A stretch of DNA of 64,000 bases, from contig OX419756.1 of assembly GCA_948567375.1 (NCBI GenBank), positions 33,308,333 through 33,372,332 of the forward strand. The letters run 5' to 3'. Made by a program: the position numbers and the translations under genes. Positions 7,011-62,710 of this stretch are shown here, one piece after another. The DNA comes from Lunularia cruciata. Its lineage: Eukaryota; Streptophyta; Marchantiopsida; Lunulariales; Lunulariaceae. Each line of letters opens with the position of its first letter. The first letter of the stretch is position 1. Below the pieces are notes generated by a model. It saw only the letters and a list, made by a program, of their open reading frames with translations. It was not told the DNA's origin and did not search any database.

Positions 7011-7102
7011 TCACAATGAACAATGAACAATGAAATATAAAGCCCGAAAGACCCAAAGAGTCAAAAGGCTGGAAACACAATACAAAACACATGAAATGTG
7101 AG

Positions 7103-7154
7103 CCTAGGCAAGGGCCTAGGGCATCGGACCAATTTGTAACAAATTGGTCCGATG
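7103..7154 (-). other. LINE copy B 3' stem-loops
   Basis: At 7122-7154, two 15-base arms (CATCGGACCAATTTG and its complement) are separated by three bases. At 7103-7120, two 7-base arms (CCTAGGC) enclose four bases. The same pair is found at the end of copies C and D. They span the ORF2 stop and the start of the 3' UTR, where LINE proteins commonly recognise their RNA. Confidence 0.75.
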
Positions 7155-10662: not shown

Positions 10663-11987
10663 CACACTTTGCCTTACGTCTTGAGCAAATTCCTCGCTGT
10701 ACTGCAATCTTCTTCTCCTCGCACACTGGTACTTTGTCTTCCAGCGCCGCATTGTCTTCTGTTTCTACTTCAACTTGCATTTCTTCTTCGTATTCTTCAG
10801 CCGCTAGTACCGATGTCATCTCTCCTCCTTCCTCACTGTCACTACTTGTATCTCCGCTCTGCAGTGTCAGCTCAAGTTCCTCCTCACGGTCTGAGTCCTC
10901 CGTCTTGAGCTCGGCTTTGCCTTTTGAGTCTTCATCTTCCGACTCAATCACCACCATTCCTCGCCTCGGGTTTTTTTTCTGCATTTTCCAAGGTTTCTTG
11001 TTTTCTTTGGCTTCTGCTTGCCGAGTTCTCTTCTTCGTCGGGGTACTTTCAACGACCTTCACGTTCTTCCCTGTCTTCGCTTAATAATTGTCCGTGCTCC
11101 GGATTTGGAGAATGTATTGCTGCTCCTCCGCGTCGACTTCTCTTCTCAAATCAGGATGGAAATGAGACACCATTTGATTACGCTCCGCCAAATTGAGCAG
11201 ATTTAACCCGAGGTAAAAATGGGCCGCAAATGGTACGATGTAGTGTGGAGGCAACTTATCCCGCAGATTCCACACCATCTGCCTCGTTCTTCCGTGAAAG
11301 CACCTTGCCCAATTTATCGGTTCTCCTACAAATAACTTGTGAAAGAACACCGCTTGGTGTTTCATCACATAGGTAGTTCTCTCCGGCTTCAGGAGTGCTA
11401 TTAGTGCACTCACAATTCCTCTCCTCACAGGGTCTTTATAGCTCTCAACTTTATACCCATTCTTCATCCTCTTTGACAAGAAGGCATCTCTCACCTCATG
11501 TGTTTCTTGGGCTATCTCTCCTTTCCCCAAGAACATGGCTCCCTGCTCCAAGCCTGCCTCCTTCCCGAGTACAAGTCTCCAATCCAACTCTGTCCAGCGA
11601 GCCGGATTTCCTCTCTTCCCTTCTTCCTCGGGACCATCGAGACATTTACTCTAGATGATTTCTGTCATGAATCCTGGAAAACTTATGTTCAAATTCCATG
11701 CCAGAAAAGTGATCCGAAGTCGGCTCAAGACTTCGATCCTTGCTACTATATCTAATCTCCAAATTGCATGATTTCTCACTGCAAAATTCGGAGTTCTTCT
11801 TCCCTCCTCCCATCTCTTCTGCTTTCTTTCTGTCTCTTGATTTCTCTCTCTCGACTTCTCCCTTGCGCACTAACACAAGTCCAACTCTATTTCCCTTTCC
11901 CCGATCACTTGCAAGACGACTCCTCAACGGCAAAGGAAAATTGCTCGACATTTCATCGTTGCAGTTTCGATTTTTATAGAGTTGCAC
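10663..11987 (-). pseudogene. N-terminal half of the LTR-encoded protein (3' LTR copy)
   Basis: Minus-strand frames 11646-11987, 11081-11587 and 10663-11062 correspond in order to residues 1-400 of the intact version at 31841-33244. The globular region (LVLGKEAG, LLKPERTTYVMKHQAV, GEPINWARCF, LPPHYIVPFAAHF) is in 11081-11587. The basic then acidic, Ser/Glu-rich segment is in 10663-11062. Stops or shifts near 11065 and 11600-11645 break the frame, and LINE copy B cuts it at 10662. Both LTR copies keep the same architecture. Confidence 0.75.
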
Positions 11988-12365: not shown

Positions 12366-12380
12366 TACCCCCTCCCTCAA
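12366..12380 (-). other. Family 2 polypurine tract
   Basis: On the minus strand TTTGAGGGAGGGGGTA directly precedes the 3' LTR start TGTGGTGCCC. This is the expected site for priming plus-strand DNA synthesis and it fixes the element's orientation. Confidence 0.85.
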
Positions 12381-13120
12381 ATGTGAGCGTCCCCGCAAAC
12401 ATAGACCTCGGGTGTCTTAGAAACTTCCGAGTCTATGGTCCAATATCTCCAAACTCTCCACCCATTTACTCGAGTGGCAAAAGGATTACCTTCCAAATTG
12501 ACGAGTTGCATGGATCCATTTTTGTAAAGATGACGAACTCGATAGGGACCCATCCATCTCAAATGCAACTTGCCTGGAAAAAATATTTGGCGATTGTCAT
12601 ATAACAAAACCAAATCCCCTTCTCGTACAGTCATAGGCTTGATTCTTTGATCGTGCCTGACTTTCCTTTGTGCTTGTACTTCTTTCGTGGTTTGCATTGC
12701 ATCGTCTCTTTTCTCTTCTAACCACATCAGTTGATGAATCTGAAGATCCTGACTTTCCTCTTCCGACATTTGTTCTTCGCACAGAACTCGATAAGTCGGA
12801 ACTTCAAATTCAACTAGCAGTATGGGATGCAAGCCATATGTCAAGAAGTATGGGGTTTGTTTGGTTGTAATCTTCTCTGTCGTCCGATAAGCCCATAATG
12901 CGGCTAGTAATTTTGTATCCCAATCATAGGCATAATTGACAGTCACCTTATTCAAAATTTTACACAGTAACCCATTTGCTTTTTCCGTTAAGCCATTTGC
13001 TTTTGGGTTATAAGGAGTCGTCTTCCTATGTTTAATCTGAAAATACTTGGTTAACTCCTCCATTACAGGTTCAAAAAATGTGTTCCTCGGTCACTGACCA
13101 ATTCCAAAGGACACCCATAT
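12377..13120 (-). pseudogene. Family 2 integrase, C-terminal half
   Basis: The second half of a DDE integrase, separated from its first half (24449-25300) by family 3. At the upstream edge the frame reads RYGCPLELVSDRGTHF, giving the second catalytic Asp. It continues from the Met at 13063 through PYNPKANGLTEKANGLL, which supplies the Glu, then WAYRTTEK and the C-terminal MGPYRVRHLYKNGSMQLVNLEG module. The frame from 13063 to 12377 is open for 228 codons. Downstream lie only the polypurine tract and LTR. Reading across the family 3 insertion after removing one CGGG restores the expected ISRYG junction. Confidence 0.88.
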
Positions 13121-13124
13121 CGGG
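13121..13124. repeat. Target-site duplication CGGG, left copy of family 3
   Basis: CGGG precedes the family 3 terminus TGTCACGCC. The same four bases follow the other terminus at 24445-24448. The integrase frame of family 2 becomes continuous if one copy and the element are removed, so the duplication is real. Confidence 0.85.
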
Positions 13125-13565
13125 TGTCACGCCATTTGTAGTTCCGCATCTAGATGCTCAGAGTTCCAGTGATGGTAGTTAGAGTTATTCTAGCCGTTTC
13201 TCAAGGACTACTTTCCGACAGTTAGATTTTGTGTTCGGGGTACTGACTTCACGGTGGAGCCCACTGTCACTTTGCACCGTTTGCACCGTCGAGCGTGCCG
13301 TCAGCGGGATCGTTAGGGTTTGAGTGCTAGCTCAAGTCTAGGGGGTATAGTTCCGAAGTGAGCTCCAGAGAGCTCACTTCTCTGATGTTGAGCCTTCGAG
13401 TTCCTGGCTATGGTGGACAGAGGCCGGCAAGCGTCACCTGGATTCTCTATGCTTGAGTGGATGTGGCTTGACTGTAATCAGTGCCCAGTTGTTGGCAGTT
13501 TATAGAGTGACAGATCAAGTACTGATCTGAGTTGAGTTGAGTTGAAAGTGTAAAGCAATCTGATT
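13125..13565 (+). repeat. Family 3 terminal repeat segment A1
   Basis: Aligns with 23897-24338 (A2) from TGTCACGCC to CTGATTA with scattered differences. It lacks the following ~106-bp B segment that accompanies A2. Directly after it is a primer-site-like sequence, not B. Confidence 0.88.
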
Positions 13566-13580
13566 ACATCAGAGAAGTGA
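13565..13580 (+). other. Possible family 3 primer-binding site
   Basis: Directly after A1 the sequence ATCAGAGAAGTG shares the ATCAGAG core with the initiator-Met-tRNA primer site common in plant retroelements (TGGTATCAGAGC). The leading TGG is not conserved, so the match is weak. Confidence 0.35.
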
Positions 13581-14833
13581 AGTCAGGGGGAAATCGGGTG
13601 CATGAACGTTGAGTGTTGGTGGTATCTCCTTGGTGGATCGTGGTAGCTCGATTCAAGTTCTGTGTTTCCCTAGTGTGCAGAAGCTCGTTCAGTTGATGCA
13701 GATTTGGCAGTTAGGCGGATGGTGTGCGGAAGCGCTGGCCAAATTTCGAGCAAAGAAGGAGCAATTTTCTAGCAATGTTGTGATTTTGAGCTCAGGAGGT
13801 GAAGGCATGACCAATTTGCTACGAGTTGGGCTCAGAAAGTGAAATTGAAGGTGGAGTTGGAAAGCTCTTCTCATGAAATTGTGATTTGGAAAAACCCGTT
13901 TTGTCAATTTGGCTCGAGTGGAAAGTTAGTAGGGGATTTGGCGGACATCCATCTTTAGGGTTTACGTCAGATTTTACATCAGATTTAGGGCCAGAATTGG
14001 AGGAGTTTCGCTGTTTGGCCAGATTTGGAGAAGTTTGCTAGTTTGGAGGAGTTTCGCAGATTTGGAGAAGTTTCACCAATTTTGGAGGAGGTTTGAAGTG
14101 GCAACAATAAAGGCCTCATTTGGCTTTTAGAGGCTTTGAGGCATAGGGCTGTGGGCTATGAGAGGCTACGAAGGCCTAGAAGGGCCAGCAAGCCAGCTTG
14201 CTGGCGTGAGGCTAGCTAGTTTAGAGTAGATCTTGGTCATTGGTTGGCAAAATCTACCTTTCTTGCTAGATTGTGCGCAACAGGGTTTGACCCCTAGATC
14301 TCTTGTTCCTAGACTGGTGCCCTAGCCAACTGGTCCACCCTCACTTGTTGTCCTAGTGATTGCGCCATTGTTATCTATACACATGTAGCTTTGGCTAGGA
14401 GAGGCAGTTTGATCCCATTCTTGGTGATCCTGGTAGCTTAGGACTTAGATAAGATCTGCTCATATGTCAAATGCCAAATGGTGGCAAAGTCAATCCCGTG
14501 TTGTGTTATGAGATGGAGGGTTTTCTTTTAGATTTCTTGTGATTGGATCCCCTCCATTCTCTGCTTCCTGTTTGTGCACCATGTTTGTGTGAGGTGCCCT
14601 GACTTTTGAGCGTTGGTGCTCTGGTGTGCTCTTGATGGTGAGGCTGGAGTGATGACCAGTCAGACTACCTTTGTTTCTCTCCGGTGAGGCAGGAAATGAT
14701 GACCTTGCAGACCGTGAGAGTGCGTGTTATGATGGTAGGTTACAGGTTGCCCTTCCCCTAGTGTAGTTATCTCAGTTAGAGTTACATTAGTGGGTGGTGT
14801 CTAGTTGGTGTTGGCACGTGGTGGTGTTGGCAA
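13581..14833 (+). other. Family 3 5' leader, no convincing ORF
   Basis: About 1.25 kb between the first terminal repeat and the gag start. I see only short frames. It contains a tRNA-like promoter head on the minus strand (14282-14343) and a 9-base inverted repeat around 14190-14210. It may hold packaging or regulatory sequences, but nothing shows that directly. Confidence 0.5.
14282..14343 (-). repeat. SINE-like tRNA-derived head
   Basis: Reading the minus strand, CCAGTTGGCTAG resembles a pol III box A. About 30 bases later, GGGTCAAACCC resembles box B. Order and spacing fit a tRNA-derived SINE head. A complete body, tail and target duplication were not identified, so this is tentative; it could also be a chance match. 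Confidence 0.4.
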
Positions 14834-15628
14834 TTGGTGGGGCACTTGCGGATGCAGTTGGTGGTTCGGGTTTGCTGTTGCAGTTACTTGGTCACGACGG
14901 AGTTCTTTGGAGATTCCAGAGGAGTTAGCCCTGAAGTATGTAATGGGTTTACTCTGAGTGGTGCTCGGTATCAGCCTGTATCTCAGGTCCCAGTGAGGGA
15001 GGAGATTGACTCTGAGTTGGAGTTCGACACAGGAGCTGATTCAGTTGAGAGTGCACTTGGTGTGTCCGCACCGTTGTTGTGGGACATGGACGAGATTTAT
15101 GGGGCCTCCAAAGGCCCTAGGCGTTACTCTGGTATAGTGGGTACCATTGAGTTGGATGACTTCATCCAAGAGTTTGATAGTTGGTGTGATTTGCAACAGA
15201 TGCGGAACCCGACTTTGTTCGCACCCTTCATGGCATGGAAGGGGTTGTTTCAGCACTTGGAGGGTCCGCCGATGGATGATTACCATGAGTTCAAGGGAGC
15301 TCATTTGGAGGAGATTGAGTTATGGAGACAGTATTGGTCTCCACACTATGTCTCCATCACTTCAGGCTCGGTGGCCAGGAGTAGATCGGCTATACCTACG
15401 AGTTCTAGCTTGAGTAGTGTTGGTGGAGCTAGTGGAGGTGCACTAGCTGGAGATAGTGCTACTACGAGTGGAGGTACCGCTGCAGGAGGTGGTGTGGTAC
15501 CGGGGTTTAACCCCATGGTGGAGTTCTTCTTGTGTTTGAGGCAGAACTACCAGGGAGTGCGGATTTACAAGCTGAGGAGCTTGCAGGAGTTCCAGCGGAA
15601 GGCTGGAGAGAGCCTACGCAAGGCATAT
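14834..15628 (+). pseudogene. Family 3 gag, N-terminal part
   Basis: An open frame from 14834 that reads through a typical gag-like helical region: LDDFIQEFDSWCDLQQM, FAPFMAWKGLFQHLEGP and EEIELWRQYW. A Gly/Ser/Ala-rich linker follows, then a second helical stretch with FFLCLRQNYQGVRIY. The frame enters LINE copy C after RKAY. It resumes with matching sense (YTRMRRLIS) after the LINE pair at 19277. The true start is uncertain because several Met codons are possible and the N-terminus before residue 40 has no recognisable motif. This is the structural capsid precursor. Confidence 0.7.
15624..15628. repeat. Target-site duplication CATAT, left copy of LINE pair
   Basis: CATAT before LINE copy C and CATAT at 19275-19279 after LINE copy D. 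Removing 15629-19279 restores the gag frame across KAYTRMRR. One short duplication therefore flanks both LINE copies together. Confidence 0.8.
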
Positions 15629-17349
15629 GAAACAATGAAACAATGAAATATAAAGCCTGAAAGACCCAAAGAGTCAAAAGGCTGGAAACACAATACAAAA
15701 CACATGAAATGTGAGCCTAGGCAAGGGCCTAGGGCATCGGACCAATTTGTAACAAATTGGTCCGATGTAAAGTAACTTCTGTCATGTACTTCCCTAATGC
15801 TAAAGCTTCAACCTGTAAGAGAAAGGAGAAGTCACTGCAAGTAATCTGATGTCTAACTCTAATCTGCATGTAACAAGGGCAATCAACAAACACATGATGC
15901 TCATCCTCAACTTTGCTCATAATACACAATTTGCAAAGTCGCATGGAGTGCTCTATCTGCTGCCAACGTCCTTGTTCTACTTCTAGTCTATGAGAACTAG
16001 TTCTATATTGAGCGATAACATGTCTAAGTGAAGTAGAAATCCTAGCCAAGAGATAATCTTGCTCACAATACACCAACATAGGATTTACAAACTGCTGATA
16101 GAACACCATCTTGGTACCGGGTTGCTGCCATAAGTGAAGTAAAAACTGCTCCTTGATCACTTCTCGTAGTGCAATAGGCTCCAACTTCCAATGTCGCTCA
16201 CAAACATTCCACCTGGTGGCCCATGCAACCAGATCTGTATACCAACCGACAGATAGAGTGGCACAAAAAGCTTGGTAGGGAAGTCTCTCATGCTCCATGG
16301 ACCTCACCTTAGTGGCATATGTGATAGCTAAAAACAAAGCTTCAGCCTCAAGAGGCAAAAACCCGGTTTCAGCAAGCAGCAATACATAAGGAGTTTGAGT
16401 CCTCACCCCAAGTTCATCACACAAAAACAATTTCTGAACTTTCTCCACCTTTTGCCACCATGTCTTCTTAGTACCTGGACCCCAAATCTGAGCACCATAG
16501 AGAACCACCGGCTGCACAAGAGATCTGAACAGCACCTTCTTCAACTCCCATGTGGCAAGGTGAGCAAGTCTAGAGCGATTCATGAGTGAATACAAAGCTC
16601 TAAAGCCTGCATTGATTCTCATCTTCACACACGTAGACCAACTATAGTCATGAGAAAACTCAAGGCCCAAGTACTTGTAAGAAGAAACCTGCTCCAATTG
16701 CTGTCCGTCGAAAGAGAAAGGTGTGACACCTTTAGAACCCACCACCATCACCTTGGACTTGTCAAGGTTCACCTCCATCTTTGTTTGATTGCAAAACAAG
16801 AGAAGAGAATCCAACAACTTCTGTAAACTTTGTGGATTGGGTGAGAGGAGCACTACATCATCCGCATACAGTAGTGCATGTATCATCAAAGAGCCAACTT
16901 GTACACCTGTAGCTCCAGCTTCCATGAGCACCCTCTCTAGATCATCGATGAAGATTCCAAACAATGTTGGGGATAGAGAGCAACCTTGAATCACACCCAT
17001 TGTGCTAAGGACATCTTGAGAGCTCAAAGATGAAAGTTTCACAACCACCTTCTCATAGAGTCTAGAGATAGCACCAATCAGATCGGCTGAAACACCAACT
17101 TCCATGAGTCTCTCACTTAATGATTTCCTAAGCACCTTATCAAAGGCCTTCCTGAAATCAATAAATGCAACATAGAGAGCTCTCCCAACACCTTTAGATT
17201 TCCACCACAAAACATGGAGTACCAATAGATGATCCAAGGTACTAAAGCCTGATCTGAAACCCGCTTGGCACTTAGCTCGAATTCTGTACTTTTCAGCCCA
17301 AGTACTCAACCTAGTCTCCAAAATTCGACCGTACAACTTGGCAAAGATA
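15629..17349 (-). mobile_element. LINE copy C, 5'-truncated
   Basis: A minus-strand LINE whose 3' tail (TTCATTGTTTCATTG-type repeats on the minus strand) is at 15629 and whose 5' truncation is near 17349. Its ORF2 is open from the RT core to the stop at 15729-15731 with the YADD box, GVIQGCSLSP and zinc knuckle intact. It differs from copies A, B and D at roughly one base in 20-25, so it belongs to a related subfamily. The first 32 codons of the ORF starting at 17435 are antisense to LINE copy D and are not LINE protein. Confidence 0.9.
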
Positions 17350-17389
17350 CTTGATGGACTATGTGACAAAGACCTTGATGGACTATGTG
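17350..17389. repeat. 16-bp duplication at the LINE C/D junction
   Basis: CTTGATGGACTATGTG occurs at 17350-17365 and again at 17374-17389, separated by ACAAAGAC. Only the second copy belongs to the normal LINE D sequence. The first is filler between the two inverted LINEs. Confidence 0.85.
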
Positions 17390-19274
17390 TTGAACTTCTG
17401 AAGTGGGGCGGTAGCCAACTGATTTCAATACTCACTTCTCATTTGAATGAGGCAATCAAGTGTGGCTTTCCGGATAGATGGTGCTTCAAGAAGGTAGTTC
17501 CTATTCACAAGTCTGGCCAAAGAGATGTTGTCACCAATTACCGTACCATACTTGTTGGTAGTGTCTTTGCCAAGTTGTATGGTCGAATTTTGGAGTCAAG
17601 GTTGAGCACTTGGGCTGAAAAGCACAAAATTCGAGCTAAGTGCCAAGCTGGTTTCAGATTAGGCTTTAGTACTTTGGACCACCTATTGGTACTTCATGTT
17701 TTGTGGTGCAAATCCAAGGGGGTTGGGAGAGCTCTCTATGTTGCCTTTATTGATTTCAGGAAGGCCTTTGATAAGGTGCAGAGGAAATCTCTAAGTGAGA
17801 GACTCATTGAAGTGGGTGTTTCAGCTGATCTGATTGGTGCTATCTCTAGACTCTATGAGAAAGTGATTGTGAAACTTTCATCTTTGAGCTCTCAAGATGT
17901 CCTTAGCACAATGGGTGTGATCCAAGGCTGCTCTCTGTCTCCAACTCTGTTCGGAATCTTCATCGATGATCTAGAGAGTCTACTCATGGAAGCTGGAGCT
18001 ACAGGTGTACAGGTTGGCTCTTTGATGATACATGCACTCCTTTATGCAGATGATGTAGTGCTTCTCTCCACAAATCCACAGAGTTTACAGAAGCTGTTGG
18101 ATTCTCTACTTTGCTTTTGCAATGAAACAAAGATGGAGGTGAACCTTGACAAGTCCAAGGTGATTGTGGTGGGTTCTAAAGGTGTCACACCTTTCTTTTT
18201 TGATGGACAGCAATTGGAGCAGGTTTCTTCTTATAAGTACTTGGGCCTTGAGTTTTCTCATGACTATAGTTGGTCTACTTGTGTGAAGATGAGAATCAAT
18301 GCAGGCTTTAGAGCTTTGTATTCACTCATGAACCGTAGTAGACTTGCTCACCTCACCACATGGGAGTTGAAGAAGGTGCTGTTCAGATCTCTTGTGCAGC
18401 CGGTGGTTCTCTATGGTGCTCAGATTTAGGGTCCAGGTACTAAGAAGACATGGTGGCAAAAGGTGGAGAAAGTTCAGAAATTGTTTTTGTGTGATGAACT
18501 TGGGGTGAGGACTCAAACTCCTTATGTATTCCTGCTTGCTGAAACAGGATTTTTACCTCTTGAGGCTGAAGCTTTGTTTTTAGCTATCACATATGCCACT
18601 AAGGTGAGGTCCATGGAGCATGAGAGACTTCCCTACCAAGCTTTTTGTGCCACTCTATCTGTCGGTTGGTATACAGATCTGATTGCATGGGCCACAAGGT
18701 GGAATGTTTCTGAGCGACATTGGAGATTGGAGCCTATTGCACTTCGAGAGGTGATCAAGGAGCAGTTTTTACTTCGCTTATGGCAGCAACCCGGTACCAA
18801 GATGGTGTTCTATCAGCAGTTTGTAAATCCTATGTTGGTGTATTGTGAGCAAGATTATCTCTTGGCTAGGATTTCTACTTCATTGAGACATGTTATCGCT
18901 CAATATAGAACTAGTTCTCATAGACTAGAAGTAGAACAAGGACGTTGGCAGCAGATAGAGCACTCCATGCGACTTTGCAAATTGTGTATTATGAGCAAAG
19001 TTGAGGATGAGCATCATGTGTTTGTTGATTGCCCTTGTTACATGCAGATTAGAGTAAGACATCATATTACTTGCAGTGACTTCTCAACTCTCTTACAGGT
19101 TGAAGCTTTAGCATTAGGGAAGTACATGACAGAAGTTACTTTACATCGGACCAATTTGTTACAAATTGGTCCGATGCCCTAGGCCCTTGCCTAGGCTCAC
19201 ATTTCATGTGTTTTGTATTGTGTTTCCAGCCTTTTGGGTCTTTCGGGCTTTATATTTCATTGTTGTTCATTGTT
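17371..19274 (+). mobile_element. LINE copy D, 5'-truncated
   Basis: A plus-strand LINE head to head with copy C. It begins near the GACCTTGATGG that corresponds to about 8930 in copy B and ends with a tail of TTCATTG-type repeats at 19274. Sequence is nearly identical to copy B. ORF2 covers the RT core to the C-terminus (17373-19182). A TAG replaces Trp at 18427-18429, splitting it into 17338-18429 and 18463-19182. The RT catalytic box, the zinc knuckle and the terminal stem-loops are all present. Confidence 0.9.
19144..19195 (+). other. LINE copy D 3' stem-loops
   Basis: A perfect 15-base stem with a 3-base loop (19144-19176) and a perfect 7-base stem with a 4-base loop (19178-19195). The first overlaps the last ORF2 codons and the second overlaps the stop codon at 19180-19182. 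Confidence 0.75.
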
Positions 19275-20842
19275 CATATACTCGCATGAGGCGGCTGATC
19301 AGTTTCACTCAGTGAGTTACTGAGGCTCAGGCAGTCCATTTTTGGTATGGGATACTGGACAGGGAGTTGCGACGTAGAGTTCGTGATGCTATGTTGTTGC
19401 ATGCTACTTCGCTCACTTTGGCAGTAGTCTTTGGTTTGGCTGAGCGTATTGAGCTTAACATGGTGGAAGAGAGAGTGGTGACATCTGGATTTGGTAGGGA
19501 GACCTCATCCACGGCTGTGACTTCTTCTAGAGTGCAGTAGAGTGCACCACGCCGAGTTGGTTTCTGAGCACAGGGTGGACAGCCCAGATCCTATGGAGCG
19601 AGTGGAGGGCCTAGTGGAGTTAGACCCTTACCCTCATTTTCGGGTCAGCAACATCCAGTGAGTGGTGGTGTTGCTTGTTAAACTTGTGGTGGACCTCACC
19701 ATAGGAGAGAGTGTACTCAGAGCAGCGGACCTGATACCTCTGGTGCATCACAGCCAGCACAAAGGCAGTGTGAGCACTGCCACAGATTTGGTCACACTAG
19801 TGATCGGTGTTTTGACCTACACCCTGAGTTACGGAGTGGTAGGGTTGTTATGGCAGGTAGTAGAGGAGCTCCAGTTCATGGAGGACGAGGTGGTAGAGGA
19901 TCTACACCTAGTAGGGGTGCAGTACCTGCCCTTACTTCTGACACAGCTATGGCTACTCGGATTGAGCAGTTGGAGCAGAGATTGGCTAGTATGGCTATTG
20001 CTCAGAGGAGATCAGATTCGGGTGCTGAGGCTTCCACCTCATATGCGGGTGATAGAGATGCTTTGGACTTCATGTGCGGAGCAGCACAGGTGGATGCATC
20101 TGCAGCAGTGACTAGGAGTGCAATACGTGCTCCAAAGCCTAGAGGAGCATCAGTGGAGTTGGACCCACAGAGAGGAGAGGTTGGGAGACAGGTCAGACTT
20201 CCCCAATCTTTCATGCTATCTAAGGCATTGCAGACAACATCCATGGTTCCTAGACGTCCCAGTGCAGGTGTGGTAGGTGGTGATGGAGTACATGATGGAG
20301 TACTTGCTAGTCAGCCACCTACTACTACACAGACTGAGTCTAGCATGATGTTGGGGGCGGCTCAGCTGATTATGCGGCATCCTTTGTTTTCAGCCAGTGA
20401 TATGTTTACATTGGGAGTTGACCCAGCCCCAGTTTTCCGGTTGGCTGCCACATTGTGTGAGAGTAGGGATGGTGCAGTTTCTACTACTAGAGCAGAGGTG
20501 GTTGGTAGTGGAGCTGACTTGGTTGAGGAGCATGGGATCCGTTCAGCGACCAATGGTTTATGGCAGGCAGCAGCGGCTAGACTGGAGGAGTTGCCAGCTA
20601 GACCGGCCTTTGAGAGAGCGCGGTTTACACCTGGTGTTGTCCTATTGGATAACCAGAGGGGGATCTTTCATTTAGTGGGACCTTCAGGGAAGGTCTATAC
20701 ACCACAGAGAGTCTTGTTAGACTCTGGTGCGCAGCCCCTTATGTTGGGGAACGCTGCAGTTGTCGGTCTGGAGTTACGGAAGACCGATGTGGAGAGGTGT
20801 CCATTTCAGATCCAGACATCTCTTGGTGGTGGTTCAACATAG
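19275..20842 (+). pseudogene. Family 3 gag C-terminus and protease
   Basis: The gag frame resumes at 19277 (RMRRLISFTQ, then HFWYGILDRELRRRV) and breaks at about 19540. The following 300 bases hold a glycine-rich segment with remnants of a Cys-His knuckle. From 19850 an open frame of 330 codons runs through a linker into an aspartic-protease-like segment near 20700-20842. This has VLLDSGAQPLMLG, giving the Asp-Ser-Gly active site, followed by VGLELRK. The protease would cut the polyprotein. The frame ends at 20840-20842, where the flap region should follow. Stops seem to be mostly C-to-T changes. Confidence 0.7.
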
Positions 20843-21329
20843 TACATCACACATGGAGACCTTGTTGTCTAGGTTCAGCCTGGTCATCCGACTGATAGCT
20901 CGGTGGTGAGAGCTCAGGCTATAGCGACGATAGCTGAGTCATATGATGTGCTAGTTGGGGGAGCAGTGTTATATCCTATGGGTTTCAGCATTGACTATTG
21001 GGAGTAGACAGCCTCTTATAGACCTGGTTGGCAGTCTGGTGAGGGACGGGTATGTTGCCTACCAGTACATTTCAGTAGTGGCAGTCTTGGCTCACTACAG
21101 TCCGGGACCATGGCAGCATCAGTTTTGGCTTTCAGCGGTGCAGTTACTTGGCCTGGTGACTTGTTGGAGGGGAACGCCCATGCAGAGGATACTCCAGTAC
21201 CAGAGGAGATCACTCGACTTTGGAGTACGAGTGGGATTGTTCCATCCACCTTGGATGTTCCATTGTGGAGTTCAGAGGAGGCATTGTAGCAACATGCAGA
21301 TCAGTTGGTGCAGCAGGCTTGGAGTGGAG
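20843..21329 (+). other. Family 3 linker with broken frames
   Basis: Decayed continuation of the polyprotein between protease and methyltransferase remnant. Short frames only; the longest plus-strand frame (20955-21386) shows no motif I recognise. Part of the protease flap probably lies at its start. Confidence 0.4.
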
Positions 21330-21625
21330 CCTTCGTACCATCAGGGGATGAGTGTGAGGATGAGCCTCCAGAGGCGATTGCTTTGACACCTTTGGATACC
21401 ACACTCATTGCTTGGCAGTACCCAGTAGAGGGGATATGCCTATTGGAGTTGTTTGGTGGGATCAGCACCGGACTAGCTGTGGTGTTACAAGCGGGTATTC
21501 GAGTACAGAGGTACTTGTATGTAGAGAGAGATGAGACTGCTAGGCGAGTCTCTCTACATCATGTGGCACACTTGGCCTATCGGTATCCGGAGTTATTACC
21601 AATGTCAACAGTCAGAGGTTACCAG
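21330..21625 (+). pseudogene. Cytosine-C5 DNA methyltransferase domain remnant inside family 3 pol
   Basis: The frame reads GICLLELFGGISTGL, matching the S-adenosylmethionine-binding motif I of C5 cytosine methyltransferases (usual form DLFxGxGG). After ten or so residues comes YLYVERDETARRV, matching motif II with the acidic residue that contacts the cofactor. The catalytic Pro-Cys motif IV and the rest of the domain are absent. After YRYPELLP the sequence passes directly into the end of reverse transcriptase (NFYRRYVRGFS in another frame). A deletion has thus removed most of this domain and most of RT. In an intact element this enzyme would methylate cytosine in DNA. Assignment rests on motifs I and II and their spacing. 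Confidence 0.65.
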
Positions 21626-22182
21626 AAAACTTCTATCGCCGCTATGTTAGAGGATTTAGTGCCATTGCCAAGGCCTTGATGAAGCTGACCAAGCTTACAC
21701 AGGAGTGGTGTTGGGGAGATGAGCAAGAGAGAGCTTTTGTAGAGCTCAAGGAGAGGTTGACATCTGCTCCTATTTTGAGGAGACCAATCAGGGGACGACC
21801 ATTTCAGGTTCACACTGATTGGAGTATGTTGGGGCTTGGAGCGGTGCTCACCCAGCATGATGATGAGGAGAAGGAGTTTGTGGTGGCCTATGCTAGTCAC
21901 TCCAACAATTCAGCGGAGGCGAAGTATAGTTCATATGAGGGAGAGTGCTTGGCAGCAGTTTGGGCAGTAGCACATTTCCGATGTTACCTATTTGGTAACC
22001 CCTTCACTCTCATCACTGATCATTAGCCGCTGAAGTGGTTGATGGAGTTTGACAAGCTTTCAGGGAAGCTTGCACGATGGGCTCTGATTTTACAGGAGTA
22101 TGATTTCACGGTTGTTCACAGACCTGGAGTGGTGAACCGTGATGCAGATGGGTTGAGTAGAAACCCATGTCCCAGCCAGTAG
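21620..22182 (+). pseudogene. Family 3 RT end and RNase H
   Basis: Begins with the typical RT end (YRRYVRGFSAIAKAL), then WGDEQERAFVELKERL, and RNase H with VHTDWSMLGLGAVLTQ (Asp), ECLAAVWAVAHF (Glu) and TLITDH (Asp). A TAG at 22024-22026 interrupts the usual DHQPLKWLM motif, consistent with CAG to TAG. After it ARWALILQEYDF and GVVNRDADGLSR complete RNase H. The RT catalytic palm is missing because of the deletion. Confidence 0.85.
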
Positions 22183-22539
22183 GATCAGACCGGAGCACGT
22201 TGGCATGGTGAGACAGATGAGGAGATGGTGCCAAGTTGGCATGCATCGGCCTTTCTGTGTATATTTGTAGAGACTTTGGTGGTATCTCTCTCAGCGCATA
22301 CAAGAGGAGTTATTGAGGTCATAGATCCAGAGAGTGAAGATATTGGTATGGTTCAGCGAGACATTCATGATGATGTCTTAGTGATGGACTATCTTCGCAC
22401 TGGTGTTGTGGGTGGCACAGTTGGAGCTAAGGAGAGAGACCGTGTTCTTCAGCAAGCCAGACGGTTTAGATTGGAGGGTAGACACCTTTTGCGTGTATGG
22501 GAGGATGGTAGAGTGCGAGTAGTACCACTTCCATCACAG

Positions 22540-23395
22540 AGACCATAGTTGGTCCATCATGCTCATGAGGAGCTAGGACATTTTGGAGTAAAGCGTACGT
22601 ATAGCTTACTTCAGAGTCATTATTGGTGACACGGTATGCAGACCGAGGTACAGCAGTTTGTTGCCAGATGTATGGTTTGTGACCGAGTTAGAGCATCATT
22701 CAATGCTCCTACGCCACAGTTACATCCATTACCTATCATGGGATTGGGTTACCGTTGGAGTTTGGACTTTGCCGGACCTTTACCGCTGACTGTGAGACAT
22801 CATTGGTATGTTTTGGTGATGGTGGAGCACTTCTCCAAGTGGATTGAGTTGGTGGTACTTCCTGACAAGTCTAGTGAAGGGACGGCTTACTCGTTCCTGG
22901 ATCGAGTTCTTAGTCATTTTGGTGCACCAGCTGAGGTTTTGACTGATCAGGGTACAGAGTTCTTGGGGGAGTTTCAGGTCTTGTGTGACAAGGCTTTGAT
23001 TGATCATTGTACTACATCCCGAGATCACCCTGAGGCAGATGGCTTAGTAGAGAGAGTGGTTCAGACGGTGAAGAGAGGATTGCGAAAGTATGGTTTGCAG
23101 AGAGGCCACTTGGGAGATTGGGATCTCCAGTTACCTTGGTTGGCCATGGGCTATCGGTTCAGCCGGCAAGCCTCCTTAGCATCCTTCTCTCCATACTTTC
23201 TACTCTATAGACGAGATCCAGATTTACTTGCAGCCGTTCGTCGAGATACTACTGTAGTTTTGGACTTGGATGACCCCGATGTGTGGATGAGCGCATGTTC
23301 TCAATGGGCAGAGATCTTTAGGAGAGTGATGCCGATGGCCTTTGAGAACTTGGCGATTGCTCTATTGGATGTGATGGTGTTGTTTGGAAGGATCA
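22540..23395 (+). pseudogene. Family 3 DDE integrase
   Basis: A zinc-binding region HHAHEELGHFG with CMVCDRV forms the HHCC module, with stops at 22546 and 22627-22629. The core has SLDFAGPL (first Asp), VLTDQGTEF (second Asp) and HPEADGLVERVVQTVK (Glu), so the catalytic triad is present. The 281-codon frame from 22636 ends at 23478, but from about 23370 it no longer resembles integrase. The normal C-terminal beta-rich module seems deleted, since the frame jumps to the segment leading into the PHD finger. This is a Ty3/gypsy integrase, not a tyrosine recombinase, which matters because the split terminal repeats recall tyrosine-recombinase elements. Confidence 0.88.
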
Positions 23396-23396
23396 T

Positions 23397-23621
23397 GTGT
23401 GCAATTGTGCGCCATGCCACCTCCCAAACATTGATGGTACTATGGATCCAAGCTTGGCACTTGTACGTGCAGGCTTGAGGTGTATGTTATGTGGCTCTTC
23501 TGGTAGAGCTGCTACTATGTTAGTGTGTGATAGCTGTTTGAGAGGATGGCATATGGCATGTATGACTCCTCCCCTCACGGTGGTTCCTCAAGAATAGTGG
23601 TTATGTCCTAGATGTACTTGA
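23397..23621 (+). pseudogene. PHD finger at the C-terminus of family 3 pol
   Basis: A C4HC3 zinc finger of PHD type. It reads LRCMLCGSSGR, then LVCDSCLRGWHMACMTPPL, then a TAG at 23595-23597, then WLCPRCT and TGA at 23619-23621. All eight zinc ligands are present in canonical order: Cys-x2-Cys, Cys-x2-Cys, x4-His-x2-Cys, and Trp-x-Cys-x2-Cys. The TPPL and Trp positions are also typical. PHD fingers of this kind bind histone H3 tails. It lies after the integrase, with a frame shift at about 23395 caused by the apparent deletion before it. It sits where chromoviruses carry a chromodomain, so a targeting role is plausible but not shown. Confidence 0.8.
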
Positions 23622-23777
23622 CCTATAGCTAGTTCATTTTTTATATGGTATAGATTGCAGACATGCAACTAACGATGGGGCTCCATAGCACCCGGCCTCC
23701 TGATCTTTGCCCATTAGAGGGTATACCATATACTTAGAGTAGATGGCTATCTGGAGTTAGAGGGACCTAACCGCCAG
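23622..23777 (+). other. Family 3 3' untranslated segment
   Basis: Short noncoding stretch between the end of the pol frame and the polypurine tract. No ORF or repeat recognised. Confidence 0.5.
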
Positions 23778-23788
23778 CTAGGGGGCGA
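23778..23788 (+). other. Family 3 polypurine tract
   Basis: CTAGGGGGCGA directly precedes TTGTGGCAC, the start of segment B1. This is a classical plant gypsy polypurine tract, so plus-strand DNA synthesis would begin at B, not at the TGTCACG terminus found at the insertion edge. Confidence 0.75.
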
Positions 23789-23896
23789 TTGTGGCACTTT
23801 AGAGTCTATGTATGACTTATGTGTGAGTTGTGCTTCTATAGTGTATGATGTTGACAGCAATGTATGTTGTGTAGCGATGTATATACGCACGATAGC
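23789..23896 (+). repeat. Family 3 terminal repeat segment B1
   Basis: Nearly identical to 24339-24444 (B2) except for the last bases, which are CGATAGC here and CGACA in B2. It lies between the polypurine tract and A2. Confidence 0.88.
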
Positions 23897-24338
23897 TGTC
23901 ACGCCATTTGTAGTTCCGCATCTAGATGCTCGGAGTTCCAATGATGGTAGTTAGAGTTATTCTAGCCGTTTCTCAAGGACTACTTTCCGACAATTAGATT
24001 TTGTGTTTGGGGTACTGACTTCATGGTGGGGCCCACCGTCACTTTGCACCGTTCGCACCATCGAGTGTGCCGTCAGCGGGACCGTTAGGGTTTCAGTGCT
24101 AGCTCGAGTCCAAGTGGTATAGTTTCAAAGTGAGCTCCAGAGAGCTCACTTCTCTGATGTTGAACCTTCGAGTTCTTAGCTATGGTGGACAGAGGCCGGC
24201 GAGCGTCACTTGGATTCTCTATGCTTGAGTGGGTGTGGCTTGACTGTAATCAATGCCCAGTTGTTCGCAGTTTACAGAGTGACAGATCAAGTACTGATCT
24301 GAGTTGAGTTGAGTTGAAAGTGTTAAGCAATCTGATTA
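23897..24338 (+). repeat. Family 3 terminal repeat segment A2
   Basis: Aligns with A1 (13125-13565). It starts TGTCACGCC and ends CTGATTA, where it joins B2. Confidence 0.88.
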
Positions 24339-24444
24339 TTGTGGCAGTTTAGAGTCTATGTATGACTTATGTGTGAGTTGTGCTTCTATAGTGTATGATG
24401 TTGACAGCGATGTATGTTGTGTAGCGATGTATATACGCACGACA
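24339..24444 (+). repeat. Family 3 terminal repeat segment B2
   Basis: Second copy of B (23789-23896), ending GCACGACA at the element edge. It is followed by the CGGG target duplication. Confidence 0.88.
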
Positions 24445-24448
24445 CGGG

Positions 24449-25463
24449 AGATGATGTTTCGAAAGAAAAATTCCGCCACAATTTCAGCATCATCTCTGCG
24501 AGTTGCTTCCGCTTCAACCATCTTGGTAGCATAATCAGTGCAAACCAAAATGTAGCGCTTTCTTGTGACTTGGGTCACTGGTTGAATGGGACCCACAAAA
24601 TCAATCCCCCATTTCTCAAAGGAGGCCAAAGGCAAAATTGGTTTCAAAGGCCATTGAGAAGTGGCCGTCGGCTTCCCCGTTCTCTGACATGCATCATAGC
24701 TTCGGATATGAGCATGTACATCTTTGTACATTGTAGGCCACCAATACCCTGCCGAAAGAATTTTCTTTACAGTATTCTTTAGAGCATAGTGTCCTCCCGA
24801 TGCCTCGGAGTGTAAAGATTCAATTACTCTTCCTACTTCGTATGACTCCAAGCATCGCCGAAGTACTTCGTCTTCGCCCATCTTAAATAAAATGTTGTGT
24901 TTAAGCTGGTACGGCCCCATTTTCCAGAGAAAGATTGCCCGCTGTTCCGGATCCATCCCCTCAGGACAATGGAGAGTATTCAGATAATTATATTCATCTC
25001 CATACCTTGTACTACTCATTGCTGATAAGTGATACAACTCTTCGTCAGGGAACCGATCGTCAATTTCCCACTCCTGGTCTTGAGTGTCTAACCTGGACAA
25101 GAAGTCCACATTCGAATGCGAAGCTCCCTTCCTCACTTGTATAGTATACGTGAACTCTTGTAATAACAAGATCCATCTTGCAATTTGTCCCGATAAATCT
25201 GCCTTCTTGACCAGATGTTGCAATGCATAATGGTCAACATAGAAGACAAACTCATACCCCAACAAATAATGACAAAATTTCTTGCAAGCATACACCATTC
25301 CGAGTGCTTCTCTTTCAGTCGTCAAATAATTCTTTTCAGAAACTGAAAGTTGTCGGCTGGCATAATACACCGGGTAGTCCTTCTTCTTCTCGTCCTTCTG
25401 ATTAAGACAACCCCGATGGCCATGGACGAAGTGTCCACATACACATGAAAAAGGACGTCCCAA
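24449..25463 (-). pseudogene. Family 2 RNase H end and integrase N-terminal half
   Basis: Minus-strand frame, open from 25463 to the family 3 border. RNase H features are YYASRQLSVSEKNY, TEREALGMVYAC and YVDHYALQ, then the SNVDFLSR end. The integrase zinc region follows with SEASGGHYALK and SYDACQR, where the first Cys of the usual CxxC is Tyr. The core then starts with KWGIDFVGP (first catalytic Asp) and VCTDYATKMVEA. It stops at the ISR codons, where family 3 is inserted, and continues at 13120. The last residues of the ORF beyond that point, down to 24336, are translated family 3 repeat, not integrase. Confidence 0.88.
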
Positions 25464-26413
25464 TTTGGGGCCCTCATGACTGGTGCTTCAACCAGTTTCT
25501 TCTTCAACACCTGGAAGGCTTCTTCTTGATGTGCTTCCCACAGATAGTCTTCAGATTTCTTCAGAAGCTTTGTAAGTGGTGCAACAAGCACTGCGTAGTT
25601 TGACACGAAGCATCTGTAATATCCGACATGTCCCAAGAAGGCTCTCAGCTCCCGGATGTTCTTTGGGGATTCCAAAGTTGCGATTATCTTAACCTTCTCA
25701 ATGTCTACTTCAATACCTTGGCTTGATACCCGATGCCCCAGAAGAATTCCCTCCCTCATTGCAAAGAAGCATTTCTCCGGGTGTAATGACAAGCCGGCAA
25801 AACGACACCTTTCAAATGTTTGGCAAAGGTAATCTATATGTACATCCCTTCGCCCAAACACACAAAAGTCATCAATAAAAACTTTGACAAATTTGCGCAG
25901 GAAATCTTTGAAGATCAAATTCATCATCCGCTGGAAAGTAGCGGAAGCATTACACAACCCAAAGGGCATTTGATTGTAAGTGAAAGTGCCCCAATTGGTC
26001 GTGAATGTAGTTTTATCCTTGTCTTCTTCTCAAATGGATGCTTGATTGTACCCTGAAAATCCATCGAGAAAACTATAACAAGGATGCCCAGCTACCTGAT
26101 CTAAAATTGTATCGGTAAAAGGCAAGGGATGATGATCTTTCCTTTTGACTGCGTTCAATTTTTGGAAGTCTTGGCACACTCGGATCTTCCCTGTTTTCTT
26201 CTTCGGGACAATGACAATGGGGGAGACCCATTCACTGCTTAAGACAGGGAACATGATTCCGGCCCCTAAGTACTTATCGATTTCATCTTTTACCAAGAGC
26301 GAGTACTTTGGGTTCAGGCGGTATTGTCGCTGCCGAACCGGAACTGCACCTTCAATCAAATCAATCCGGTGTTCTCCAAATTCTCGTGGAATACCCGGCA
26401 TTTGATCAATCAA
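25322..26413 (-). pseudogene. Family 2 reverse transcriptase
   Basis: The first part (26030-26413) has EWVSPIVIVPKKKTGKIRVC, DFQKLNAVKRKDHHPLPF and FLDGFSGYNQ. The second part (25322-25969) has MPFGLCNASATFQ, the catalytic FIDDFCVFG, ILLGHRVSSQGIEV and FLGHVGYYRCF, then the start of RNase H with HVYVDTSSMAIG. A shift or stop at about 25970-26030 separates them. Catalytic Asp residues remain. The RT is followed by the RNase H/integrase frame with a shift near 25400. Confidence 0.88.
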
Positions 26414-26428
26414 CCAGGCAAATACATC

Positions 26429-27235
26429 CTAGAATTCTATAAACAGGGCAGTGTATCCTGCAAACTCCTCCGAAGTAACTGTCTTTGAGATTTTTAAAAA
26501 TTTTCCTTCAATGAGTAACACCTCTTGATAGTCATCGGGGTTGATGACTCCTTCAACGTGGCTTACTCGGCTTATCCCGAGGCGAGCAGCCATCAAACCC
26601 CCTTCCTCCAAGTCAGGTTCACCCGAGGCGAGGTCATATGGATCTTCATTGTCAGCCTCTACCTCGTAGCATTCCAAGTAATTAACTTGGACTTCTTCTT
26701 CGGATTTGTTTGAAGACGAAGACGATGAGTCTTCGGGCTCATCCTCCTCTTTTGACAAACTTGTTTCCCCGAGATGGGGAACCTTTGTCCAATTCACAGT
26801 CACTAGCTTCTGATCTTCGGACGAAATGTCCTTGAATCTTAACTTCTGCTGATGTCAATCCACTACAACTTGGGCACTATACAACCAGGGTCTGCCGATC
26901 AACAGAGGGTAACCAGTTTTTGTCACTGGCCGCAACACGATGTATTTCAACTTGAAGGGTACCCCTCCAATGATCGTGGTAATGTTCGACAGCATGCCCA
27001 AGGGCCATCTCCTGGTTTGGTCTGCAAACTTCAAAACTCGGGGTGTTGGTTCAAACGTATGATACCCAAGTCGATTCACAATATCTTCAGTCATGACATT
27101 CACACCGGACCCAAAGTCAATGGGTATCGATGTGATCATGCACCCTGCAGTCTCCGCGTCTACCTTGGGAGATCCCAAATCTTCTTGTTCAATACGATAG
27201 ATAGCAGGCAGGTCCTTCTTTGACATCAACCTCAC
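26429..27235 (-). pseudogene. Family 2 aspartic protease and linker
   Basis: Protease-like frame 26855-27235 with SIPIDFGSGVNVM, where the active-site Asp-Ser-Gly reads Asp-Phe-Gly, and the C-terminal GYPLLIGRPWLYSAQ typical of retropepsins. After a stop the acidic linker 26429-26803 (rich in Glu, Asp and Ser) leads into RT. The Ser-to-Phe change would abolish activity. A decayed relative is at 43581-44444. Confidence 0.75.
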
Positions 27236-27256
27236 CTTCTTGAGGGCTGAATTAAG

Positions 27257-28870
27257 CTATCTCTTGTACAGCTTGTTATCTTCCCACAATTGCTTAAATG
27301 TAACATTGGCATTTGTGGTGGCCAAGTCGGCTACAATATCATATTGGGGAACTCTTCCCAATTTGACCGTCTTCGTCTTCTGCTTTGAGTCCAAGGACTC
27401 TCCATGCTCCCTCTTGACTTCGGGACGCTTCAAAATGGTGACAGGCTTGCTAATGGTCTTAACCTGAGCTTCCTTGGGTTGGCCTACCTCGGCTTGAATC
27501 AGACCTTTTACTTCGGATCGGATGTCCACCGGAAAAATTGGAGACTTCGTCTTCGTCTCTTCTCCCAAACTCAGTTCTCGAGTCCTGAGTAATGCCTCCG
27601 TTAATTCTTTCTGCAAGGCTTTAGCTTTAGCTTTTGCGAGGATCTTTTCCTCCTTGGCCGAAAGAATTGCTTTTGGGCGCTGTCTCTTCGCCTTTCGGGA
27701 ACACGACGAGGTCGTACTCAGTTCTTTGGGATCACGCTTCTTCTTGGTGGAGCGTGTCTCAACTTTCAAAATTTCAAGGTCTAGCCATTCTCCTTCTGAG
27801 GCCGGACTCCCTTCTTGAGGTCTTTCTTCCTCAAGAGTTCTACAATTTACATTCGTATCTCCCTTCGCCTGAAGTGCTGCACGCTTAGCGGGGGTTTGTA
27901 CATATTTTACAAGAGGCTTCGGGTTTGGCGGGTGAGGGCATTGGTTGCCCGTATGCCCCGATCCTTTACAATTTCCACACAGGGGAATGTACCCAATTTG
28001 CCTTCTTGGCTTGGGACAATTTGGAGACCAATGTCCCATCGAGCCACAATTATAACAGGCTCCGGGTGCAACATTCTGAGAGCAATTTTGGTTGCTCATC
28101 GGTGGTCTTCGTGCAGGAGCATTGGGGTTATACTCCCGAGGTCCAAACCTCGGACCTTGATACAATGTGCTTGGTTGAGGCTGTACCTCTTGAGTTTGGT
28201 ACACCGCCTCTTCGTCCTCGTCTTGGTTCCATCCCGGAACCCAATCAATTTGTTGCACTGGGAATGCATTACGAGTATTGCATTCTGTGTTGGCGTGGCC
28301 GGATTTTCCACATGCGGTGCACCACACATTAGATCGTCCAAATGCTGGGGCCTTTCTTCCGTCCTTAGCCCCAATCATCTGGATCTTGAAATCCGAAAAC
28401 TCCTTGATGAGGGCATCCAGCTTCGTATCCGCCTTATGTACACTCTTGGCTGGTGGAGTCACTGGTTTCTTGCCTCCATGTCTTCTGACTTGTCTTGGCT
28501 TTGATTCTTTTTCAGATTCCAAAGAAGAGCTCAAAGACGTAGAGGATTCGTCCAAAGAAGGGGAGGTGATGCGCGAAGCTCTCCTTCTAGGCTTCTTGCC
28601 CTTCTTCTCCCAATTTCTCCGGTTACCGGTAGAGTAAGAGTGGGCCACTTCATAACGAGCGACATGTTTGAGTACTTTATCCAAGGAAGTTACGTTCCTC
28701 TCCTTGGCAAAGATTCGTATCTCTGGTGAAAGGCCCCCGAGGAACCAGGTAATGGCTTGGGCATCGGAGTATCCCACCACCCCCGATTGCTTGGGAACTC
28801 GGTTCAATAATGCCATGAACCGCTCAGAGTAGTCTCTCAACTCCTCCTTCTTGCTCCCGGTCCAAATCAT
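27257..28870 (-). pseudogene. Family 2 gag, C-terminal part with three zinc knuckles
   Basis: An open frame of 537 codons. Residues 1-80 are the end of the retrotransposon gag fold (LRDYSERFMALLNRV, ITWFLGGLSPEI). A basic Ser/Lys-rich region follows. Three CCHC knuckles appear at about residues 185-200, 270-285 and 295-310 (CTACGKSGHANTEC, CYNCGSMGHWSPNC, CGNCKGSGHTGNQC). The rest is Lys/Glu-rich and leads to the protease. The knuckles bind RNA during packaging in known elements. The N-terminus is in another frame at 28914 and above, so a shift near 28880 has broken gag. A decayed copy of this region is at 44448-46267. Confidence 0.85.
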
Positions 28871-28913
28871 TTAATGCCGCGAAGACATTCGTATCATAGT
28901 CAACCTCCCGGAA

Positions 28914-29753
28914 TCATTCCAAGAAGTTGTTTCTCAAGTCTGCCCAGTCCGATGGTACAAACTCCTTCTGAGTCACATGGGTGTACCTGCTCCGAGCTTT
29001 CTTGCGAAGCAGACTTGGAAAAATTCTTAGTTGATCCGCCGAGTCATGCTCCTTGTTAGCAAAGGAGATGACTTCAAATTCTTTGATGAATTCATCGGGG
29101 TCTTCGTCTTGTTCTGTCCCCTTATACTTCTGATAGGCGTGTCGGGTGACAGGAAGTGAAGTCATCATTCGATGCACTGGGATTGGCTGAGGTAATGTGG
29201 AACTTGACGGAATGGAAGAATTGGCTGGAATTGACGCCGTGTTGTCAGCCCAAGGATTCCAATTCGTCAAATTCAACGTAGGGTCTTCTTTGACAATTTC
29301 TACCTTGAGAGGGTCGACTTCAACCCGAGTGGAAGATTCAGGATCAACACCTTCAATAGGTTCTTCCAAATTCCTTCGGGACAACCAAGGAATCGTTCGT
29401 AGAAGATGTTGACACTCGTCTTCAATAAGTGTGCGTGCTGTCTTTTCTCGAACAAAGGTCTTCAAGGAAACAACTTCCTTTACAGCTCTAGGGGAAGTTG
29501 GTGTATTGGGCCGCAATGCATATGTTTGCCCCAAGAAGAAGAGGAAGATGCAAAGTAGCCTTGCCAACCACCTTCGCATTTCTTGTGATCAAGTTCTCGC
29601 AGGGCTTCTTGCACTTCGTGAAGGAGTTGAAACTCCAACGCCTCTCGCTCAGTTTCGTCAACGATGGATGGGACATTCAGACGTTTGTCTTCTTCATGCT
29701 GAAGTGCTCGTCTTCGAGCTCTCTCTTCCCGTTGTTCTTTCAATCCAGATATT
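28914..29753 (-). pseudogene. Family 2 gag, N-terminal part
   Basis: Frames 28914-29579 and 29480-29743 read a coiled, charged start (KEQREERARRR, EFQLLHEVQEALREL). A linker follows, then the gag core with YKGTEQDEDPDEFIKEFEVISF and RYTHVTQKEFVPSDWADLRN. This is the usual Retrotrans_gag type fold and it continues into 28870 after a frame shift. It begins shortly after the primer-binding site, as expected. The true start codon is unclear because the first 60 codons are split over two frames. Confidence 0.75.
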
Positions 29754-62122: not shown

Positions 62123-62710
62123 TTTCATGCCATTTGTAGTGTCACATCTAGATTGCTTGGACATTGGAGTTTGAGTGATAGTAGTTAGAGTTCTTTCAAC
62201 AGTTTCTGAGAGACTACTTCCCGACACTTAGATTTTGTGTTTGGGGAACTGATTTCACGGTGGATTCCACGGTCAATTTGCACCGTTTGCACCATCAAGA
62301 GTGCCGTCAGTAGGACTGTTAGGGTTCAGAGCTAGCTCAAGTCCAAGGGGTATACTTTTGAAGTGCAACTCCAGAGAGCTCACTTCTTTGATGTTGAGCC
62401 TTCGAATTCTTGGCTATGGTGGATAGAGGCCGGCAAGCCTCTATCCACCATAGATTCTCTTAGCTGGATTCTCACCTGGATTCTCTTAGCTAGAGTGGGT
62501 GTGGCTTGATTGTAATCAGTGCCTAGTTGTTGGCAGTTTATAGAGTGACAGATCAAGTACTGATCTGAGTTGAGTTGAGTTGAGAGTGGTAAAAAATCTG
62601 ATTATTGTGGCACTTTAGAGTTTATGTATCACTTGTGTGTGTGTTGTGCTTCTATAGTGTATGATGTTGACAGCAATGTATGTTATGTAGCAATGTATAT
62701 ACACACAATA
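62123..62710 (+). repeat. Diverged solo terminal repeat of family 3, permuted A-B form
   Basis: Matches A (TCATGCCATTTGTAG onward) and then B (TTGTGGCACTTTAG to ACACACAATA) in one block, in the same order as 23897-24444. The flanks are AGTT on the left and AGGT on the right, a possible 4-bp duplication with one change. Contains a new hairpin at 62414-62453. Confidence 0.8.
62414..62453. repeat. Perfect 17-bp inverted repeat in the solo repeat
   Basis: CTATGGTGGATAGAGGC and its exact complement around CGGCAA. The family 3 copies have only the left arm, followed by different sequence. Confidence 0.85.

Follow-up and report, generated by a model that had tools for sequence, protein, structure and literature searches.

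A DNMT3-like methyltransferase remnant in the polyprotein of a gypsy-type retrotransposon of Lunularia cruciata and its relatives in bryophytes and green algae

Retrotransposons carrying a de novo methyltransferase of their own have previously been published from dinoflagellates and a charophyte (main text of de Mendoza et al. 2018, PMC5890265). The locus described here raises the question of whether an element found in a land plant belongs with them and, if so, what such an enzyme would be for. The window, i.e. the whole stretch of DNA analysed, comprises 64,000 nt of Lunularia cruciata contig OX419756.1 (GCA_948567375.1, positions 33,308,333-33,372,332, forward strand) and contains a gypsy-type element, in whose polyprotein an initial annotation had noticed motifs I and II of a C5 methyltransferase, at 21330..21625, between protease and reverse transcriptase (RT). 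The analysis indicates that this segment is probably the remnant of a de novo cytosine methyltransferase of the DNMT3 type, a domain that is a regular component of a family of gypsy (DDE-integrase) elements of the KnitGypsy-Dnmt3 kind, with a proposed methylating role.

The two motifs are real. Indeed, motif I (LLELFGGISTGL) and motif II (VERDETARR) share one frame at 21440-21547, inside a DNMT3-type remnant at 21404..21628 on the plus strand, which reads LIAWQYPVEGICLLELFGGISTGLAVVLQAGIRVQRYLYVERDETARRVSLHHVAHLAYRYPELLPMSTVRGYQK in a single frame and corresponds to the first 75 residues of a C5-cytosine methyltransferase (motifs I, II and the next stretch), downstream of gag and protease in an element of the gypsy type. 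The methyltransferase part proper starts at about 21404-21437, and the homology to gag-protease-methyltransferase (gag-PR-DNMT) proteins extends from gag across the methyltransferase as far as about 21628; in nine aligned covering proteins the right end of the DNMT homology falls at 21598-21649, and at exactly 21628 in four of them. The remnant shares 79.7% identity over 74 residues with one such gag-PR-DNMT protein, P0001 (E 1.6e-35 in a comparison among 180 proteins), 72.6% over 73 residues with a Calypogeia protein and 64% over 64 residues with a Sphagnum protein. A PDB search with a 79-residue piece of the remnant gave 29 matches at E up to 10, every one of them DNMT3A, DNMT3B or DNMT3C, the best with E 0.011. 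The profile search for a DNA_methylase family, suggested by the initial annotation, failed on the remnant (no Pfam family at E up to 1) and succeeded on six relatives, in which Pfam found PF00145; its best stretch starts just before motif IV, past the end of the remnant. The Pfam null and the best PDB E value would suit a chance motif match or some other Rossmann-fold enzyme, a reading that is refuted by the uniform DNMT3 matches and by the 80% identity to a protein whose DNMT domain is complete, and that retains practically no probability.

Used as query against 5.8 billion proteins (E up to 1e-3), the PR-DNMT piece matched 23 proteins: 16 from Marchantia polymorpha, one from Calypogeia fissa, one from Sphagnum fallax and five others. 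The DNMT domain of the bryophyte relatives lies after gag and protease and before the RT, which bears out the position first given for the window, though the window copy has lost most of its RT. Whereas intact copies without motifs IV, VI and VIII would have refuted the initial proposal, 13 of the 23 relatives have motifs I, IV (the catalytic Pro-Cys, PC), VI (ENV) and VIII in native order, and seven of these 13 also have motif X by a loose pattern. Taken alone, the window copy, with its 75 residues in a decayed element, could be seen as a fragment of a host DNMT3 gene that was inserted late and by chance into a dead element; proteins from several species carry the same domain at the same place and in frame with gag-PR, which refutes this, and such an event is extremely improbable. 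Capture of a C5 methyltransferase by a gypsy polyprotein, as initially proposed, is instead supported by the motif set of these 13 relatives and by the DNMT3-like fold described below, and its extension from charophytes and dinoflagellates to land plants is supported by the nearest named relatives being bryophytes.

Kinship with DNMT3 was judged from how PDB sequences and structures ranked as matches. DNMT3 ranked first among PDB sequences by a wide margin, ahead of DRM, and no DNMT1 or CMT chain was present among the matches listed; a DRM origin was rejected on this ranking and on motif I standing before IV, VI and VIII (not permuted). When the predicted structure was compared with known folds, DNMT3 again came first, with HhaI 2.4 Z behind. 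Judged from sequence, the domain thus appears nearest to DNMT3, and its predicted fold is DNMT3-like. In a tree of 148 DNMT segments, where the remnant fills 20% of the columns, the window falls in a 13-row bryophyte-type clade (Marchantia, Calypogeia, three others and the window; SH-aLRT 99). A 24-row clade (SH-aLRT 99) adds to these rows P0049 and the P0024-P0034 group, whose members are DNMT-bearing and have no RT on the same protein; P0064, which forms a long branch, was left out.

A wider family is present in green plants. The DNMT region of Marchantia protein P0004, used as query, gave 63 proteins, including polyproteins with RT, DNMT, integrase (INT) and PHD finger. The integrase-PHD region of P0036 gave 405 proteins, the best 120 of which were scored with a model built from P0001, P0004 and P0015 (E up to 1e-5): 111 of the 120 have a DNMT domain, a figure that is no census because the query itself comes from a DNMT-bearing element and only the best 120 of 405 are covered. 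Haematococcus, Tetrabaena, Volvox, Pleodorina, Chlamydomonas and Scenedesmus are named among the integrase-PHD matches listed, and Haematococcus P0067 is one of the nine proteins without the domain. With an iterated model, a DNMT domain was scored in 170 of 180 proteins. The order RT-DNMT-INT-PHD was found in 108 of the 180, DNMT before RT in four (three Marchantia, one Sphagnum), DNMT-RT-INT-PHD in one (P0064) and RT-INT-PHD without DNMT in seven, the rest being partial or otherwise ordered. None of the 23 PR-DNMT relatives, only two of which reach the integrase, has a PHD finger, and within the bryophyte-type clade a PHD finger was seen only in the window element.

The motif alignment covers the 147 of the 170 DNMT segments that exceed 230 residues, the 23 shorter ones being left out. 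To our knowledge, the Pro-Cys of motif IV is near-universal elsewhere; here the Pro position holds Pro in 58 segments, Glu in 67 and another residue in 22. The Cys, the ENV Glu and the motif VIII Arg are each kept in 65 of the 67 Glu-form segments, in 57, 58 and 58, respectively, of the 58 Pro-form segments, and in 15 each of the 22 others. The Glu-form segments belong to algal-type relatives within P0036-P0180 (e.g. Haematococcus P0141, P0114 and P0070), and one Haematococcus Glu-Cys segment matched only DNMT3A in PDB (E up to 10), with E 9.5e-4. On a tree built with motif IV masked, Glu-Cys requires 12 changes, at least four of them forced by supported branches, and therefore arose or was lost repeatedly. 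A tentative interpretation, for which the odds are somewhat below even, is that a gypsy lineage of chlorophytes and bryophytes regularly bears a DNMT3-type writer together with a PHD reader on the integrase, the writer standing before the RT in the bryophyte clade and, in the algal clade, between RNase H and integrase, and that the recurrent Glu-Cys form, with Cys, ENV Glu and motif VIII Arg kept, could represent a changed cytosine-C5 chemistry maintained by a mobile element.

Several observations weigh against the main reading, a DNMT3-type domain with a methylating role. In brief, (i) 10 of the 23 PR-DNMT relatives miss at least one of the four motifs, many being damaged or cut, and these ten are cut, deleted or too short, including the Sphagnum protein, which has no motif IV; (ii) in the fold comparison, HhaI outscores a few of the DNMT3 rows, and the confidence of the structure model is moderate (mean pLDDT 63), with 25 of 34 ten-residue blocks (341-680) at pLDDT ≥77 and the catalytic loop (442-449) below 50; (iii) the gypsy polyproteins Chlamydomonas P0133, Volvox P0084 and Pleodorina P0085 keep a DNMT-like domain in which the Pro-Cys is replaced by QA, DE and CW, respectively, and with the Pro or even the Cys of motif IV gone from these volvocine copies, not every member requires methyl transfer; and (iv) the KnitGypsy-Dnmt3 domain of Klebsormidium nitens was inactive in a yeast assay, a result that its authors call inconclusive in the main text of PMC5890265. 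The last two points, together with the Glu or other residues that replace the motif IV Pro in so many segments, would also fit a DNMT fold that is retained within the integration complex to bind DNA, flip bases or act as a scaffold, with methyl transfer unimportant or lost. Against this explanation, the 24-row clade of the window keeps the ENV Glu and the motif VIII Arg in 24 of 24 rows and the Cys in 23 of 24, and the retention of catalytic residues in nearly all Glu-form segments would be odd for a mere scaffold; overall, it is considered unlikely, at roughly one chance in four.

For the preferred reading, a methylating enzyme of the element, the following steps are proposed. The enzyme would be made as part of the polyprotein and carried in the particle, where it could methylate CG sites of the fresh double-stranded cDNA or else act on the insertion site; a new copy would then arrive already marked and might be less readily sensed as foreign or do less harm to the host; the PHD finger on the integrase could read the histone H3 tail and steer insertion. 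The window copy is capable of none of these steps. Alternatively, the domain might methylate RNA or the chromatin of the insertion site, or slow the element down and thereby spare its host. The Discussion of PMC5890265 raises as options RNA methylation (in the case of the LINE type), an influence on the insertion site and a slowing of transposition, and a PHD finger on the integrase could bring the enzyme to chromatin; the present data do not separate such roles from cDNA methylation, and they are given a small probability, clearly below that of a structural part. Copies in Marchantia polymorpha and Calypogeia bring the question of the purpose of an element-borne methyltransferase into genetically tractable plants, and the recurrent Glu-Cys active site of the algal relatives is a chemical puzzle open to direct assay.

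The element around the remnant spans 13125-24444 and has TG...CA ends, a 4-bp target duplication and split repeats in the arrangement A-coding-B-A-B, with coding parts and repeats on the plus strand. From left to right, it comprises a target-site duplication CGGG (13121..13124, from flank comparison), the left terminal repeat A1, starting TGTCACG (13125..13566, 93.7% identity to A2), the N-terminal part of gag (15086..15643, tblastn with residues 1-180 of P0004, 60% identity), a nested insertion of two inverted copies of a long interspersed nuclear element (LINE) that splits gag and is not part of the element proper (15625..19279), the continuation of gag with CCHC zinc knuckles recognised by eye at about 19682-19830 (19274..20640), and a retropepsin-like protease (LLDSGAQPLMLG) with approximate borders (20650..21004); Asp_protease_2 was found in the relative P0001 with E 0.0012, a match that falls short of the curated threshold. 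Four stops, each of them TAG, interrupt the frame 19682-21676, two in the protease (20840 and 20870) and two downstream of it (21005 and 21287). Beyond the methyltransferase remnant follow the RT end and RNase H (21628..22182; RT_RNaseH_2 9e-34, RT_RNaseH 1.8e-25), a DDE integrase (22345..23361; rve 3e-13), whose zinc-binding H2C2 part is weakly recognised (E 0.12), and a PHD finger (23376..23615; PHD 5.5e-8, 49% identity to P0036 over 80 residues), which lies in a different frame from the integrase and contains a TAG stop. The integrase shares 81% identity with Sphagnum fallax P0019 (134 residues) and 45% with P0036 (339 residues); an integrase tree left it unplaced, P0019, the closest by tblastn, being apparently too partial, and was not used. 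Repeat B1 (23788..23892), directly 3' of a purine-rich tract (AGGGGGCGA), repeat A2 (23897..24338), repeat B2, which ends the element with ...CGACA (24338..24444, 98% identity to B1 over 105 bases), and the right target-site duplication CGGG (24445..24448, from flank comparison) complete the structure.

At the deletion junction on the plus strand, near 21628 (21620..21635), the DNMT homology stops, the RT/RNase H homology starts and the frame changes. The deletion took motif IV onward and most of the RT: residues 447-953 of P0009 (507 residues) are absent, which is a lower bound because P0009 itself lacks an RT stretch that is present in P0021. The window copy is dead, because of this deletion, the four TAG stops and the two LINEs splitting gag.

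The gag-PR-RT-RNase H-integrase (DDE) order of Ty3/gypsy elements is present. Plain direct long terminal repeats (LTRs) at both ends were not found, the left end having A only and the right end B-A-B, and a plain LTR element was rejected on this layout. DIRS-type elements have a tyrosine recombinase in place of a DDE integrase and are not known to make a target-site duplication; no tyrosine recombinase was found in the nine window pieces scanned, which gave an rve integrase instead, and with the CGGG duplication this does not fit a DIRS element. The duplication is put at 4 bp because the flanks joined with one CGGG give a continuous integrase-like reading, RNIISRYGCPLELVSDRGTHF, on the minus strand; this is the integrase of a second gypsy element and itself changes frame slightly further on. 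The alternative lengths 0, 3, 5 and 8 give longest open stretches of 95, 96, 90 and 79 residues, so that 4 is not singled out. The DNMT element is nested in the integrase gene of this minus-strand element (window 12377-13120 and 24449-29588). A solo A-B copy without coding region (62125..62710, plus strand), whose own ends and duplication are not clear, is what recombination between A1 and A2 would leave, and because of it the A...B borders are seen to recur. Since the first bases of B1, which follows the purine-rich tract, are (T)TG, the replicative LTR may be B-A, with the inserted form permuted relative to it, as from a circular intermediate.

Repeats A1 and A2 are separated by 24 transitions and four transversions; 19 of the 24 transitions lie at CG or CHG, contexts that hold 84 of the 215 cytosines (Fisher p 3e-5). 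The solo copy differs from A2-B2 by 45 transitions and 25 transversions; of the 45 transitions, 22 fall at CG/CHG, where 87 of the 251 cytosines lie, a less marked lean than for A1 and A2. Because of the concentration of A1/A2 transitions at CG/CHG, the A repeats look as if they had been methylated and deaminated; the pattern does not indicate the agent of methylation.

Within gag, the LINE pair at 15625-19279 consists of 1.7-kb inverted repeats, 95% complementary and 208 nt apart. A LINE-like stretch at 7790-11650 on the minus strand has an open 852-residue frame and upstream open reading frames (ORFs). The LINE copy at 17369-19277 matches 7016-8928 with 99% identity, suggestive of recent LINE activity. 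An Rfam scan of the window gave no matches, and scans of viral contigs (two) for the DNA of relatives gave no locus.

Among known systems, chromoviruses are gypsy elements with a chromodomain behind the integrase. The window element resembles them in having a chromatin-reading module at the integrase C-terminus and differs in that this module is a PHD finger instead of a chromodomain and that a DNMT domain is added. SymbioLINE-Dnmt, as described in the main text of PMC5890265, likewise has a C5 methyltransferase within a retrotransposon, but it is a LINE with the DNMT in an ORF upstream of the RT and belongs to a Symbiodinium-specific DNMT lineage. SymbioDIRS-Dnmt3 of Symbiodinium (same source) shares a Dnmt3-type domain in Pol and A-coding-B-A-B repeats, and differs by its tyrosine recombinase, in contrast to the DDE integrase and 4-bp target duplication found here. 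In the open-licence PMC literature, the name KnitGypsy occurs in one paper only, no report was found of such elements from bryophytes or chlorophytes, although the figures and supplements of PMC5890265 may hold more, and none was found, within the text available there, of the PHD finger, the two domain orders or the Glu-Cys form of such elements. The closest system is KnitGypsy-Dnmt3 of K. nitens, a gypsy element whose Pol includes Dnmt3 and whose repeats are DIRS-structured, with Ka/Ks <0.2 (main text of PMC5890265). By description, the two elements are alike in their Dnmt3-type domain in a gypsy polyprotein, their gypsy domain set and their DIRS-like repeats; they differ in that the host of KnitGypsy-Dnmt3 is a charophyte alga, whereas the nearest named relatives of the window element are bryophytes, and in the PHD finger behind the integrase of the latter, the word PHD being absent from the main text of that paper. 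On these sequence features, the window element appears to be a further member of the KnitGypsy-Dnmt3 kind, bryophyte-like by its nearest relatives.
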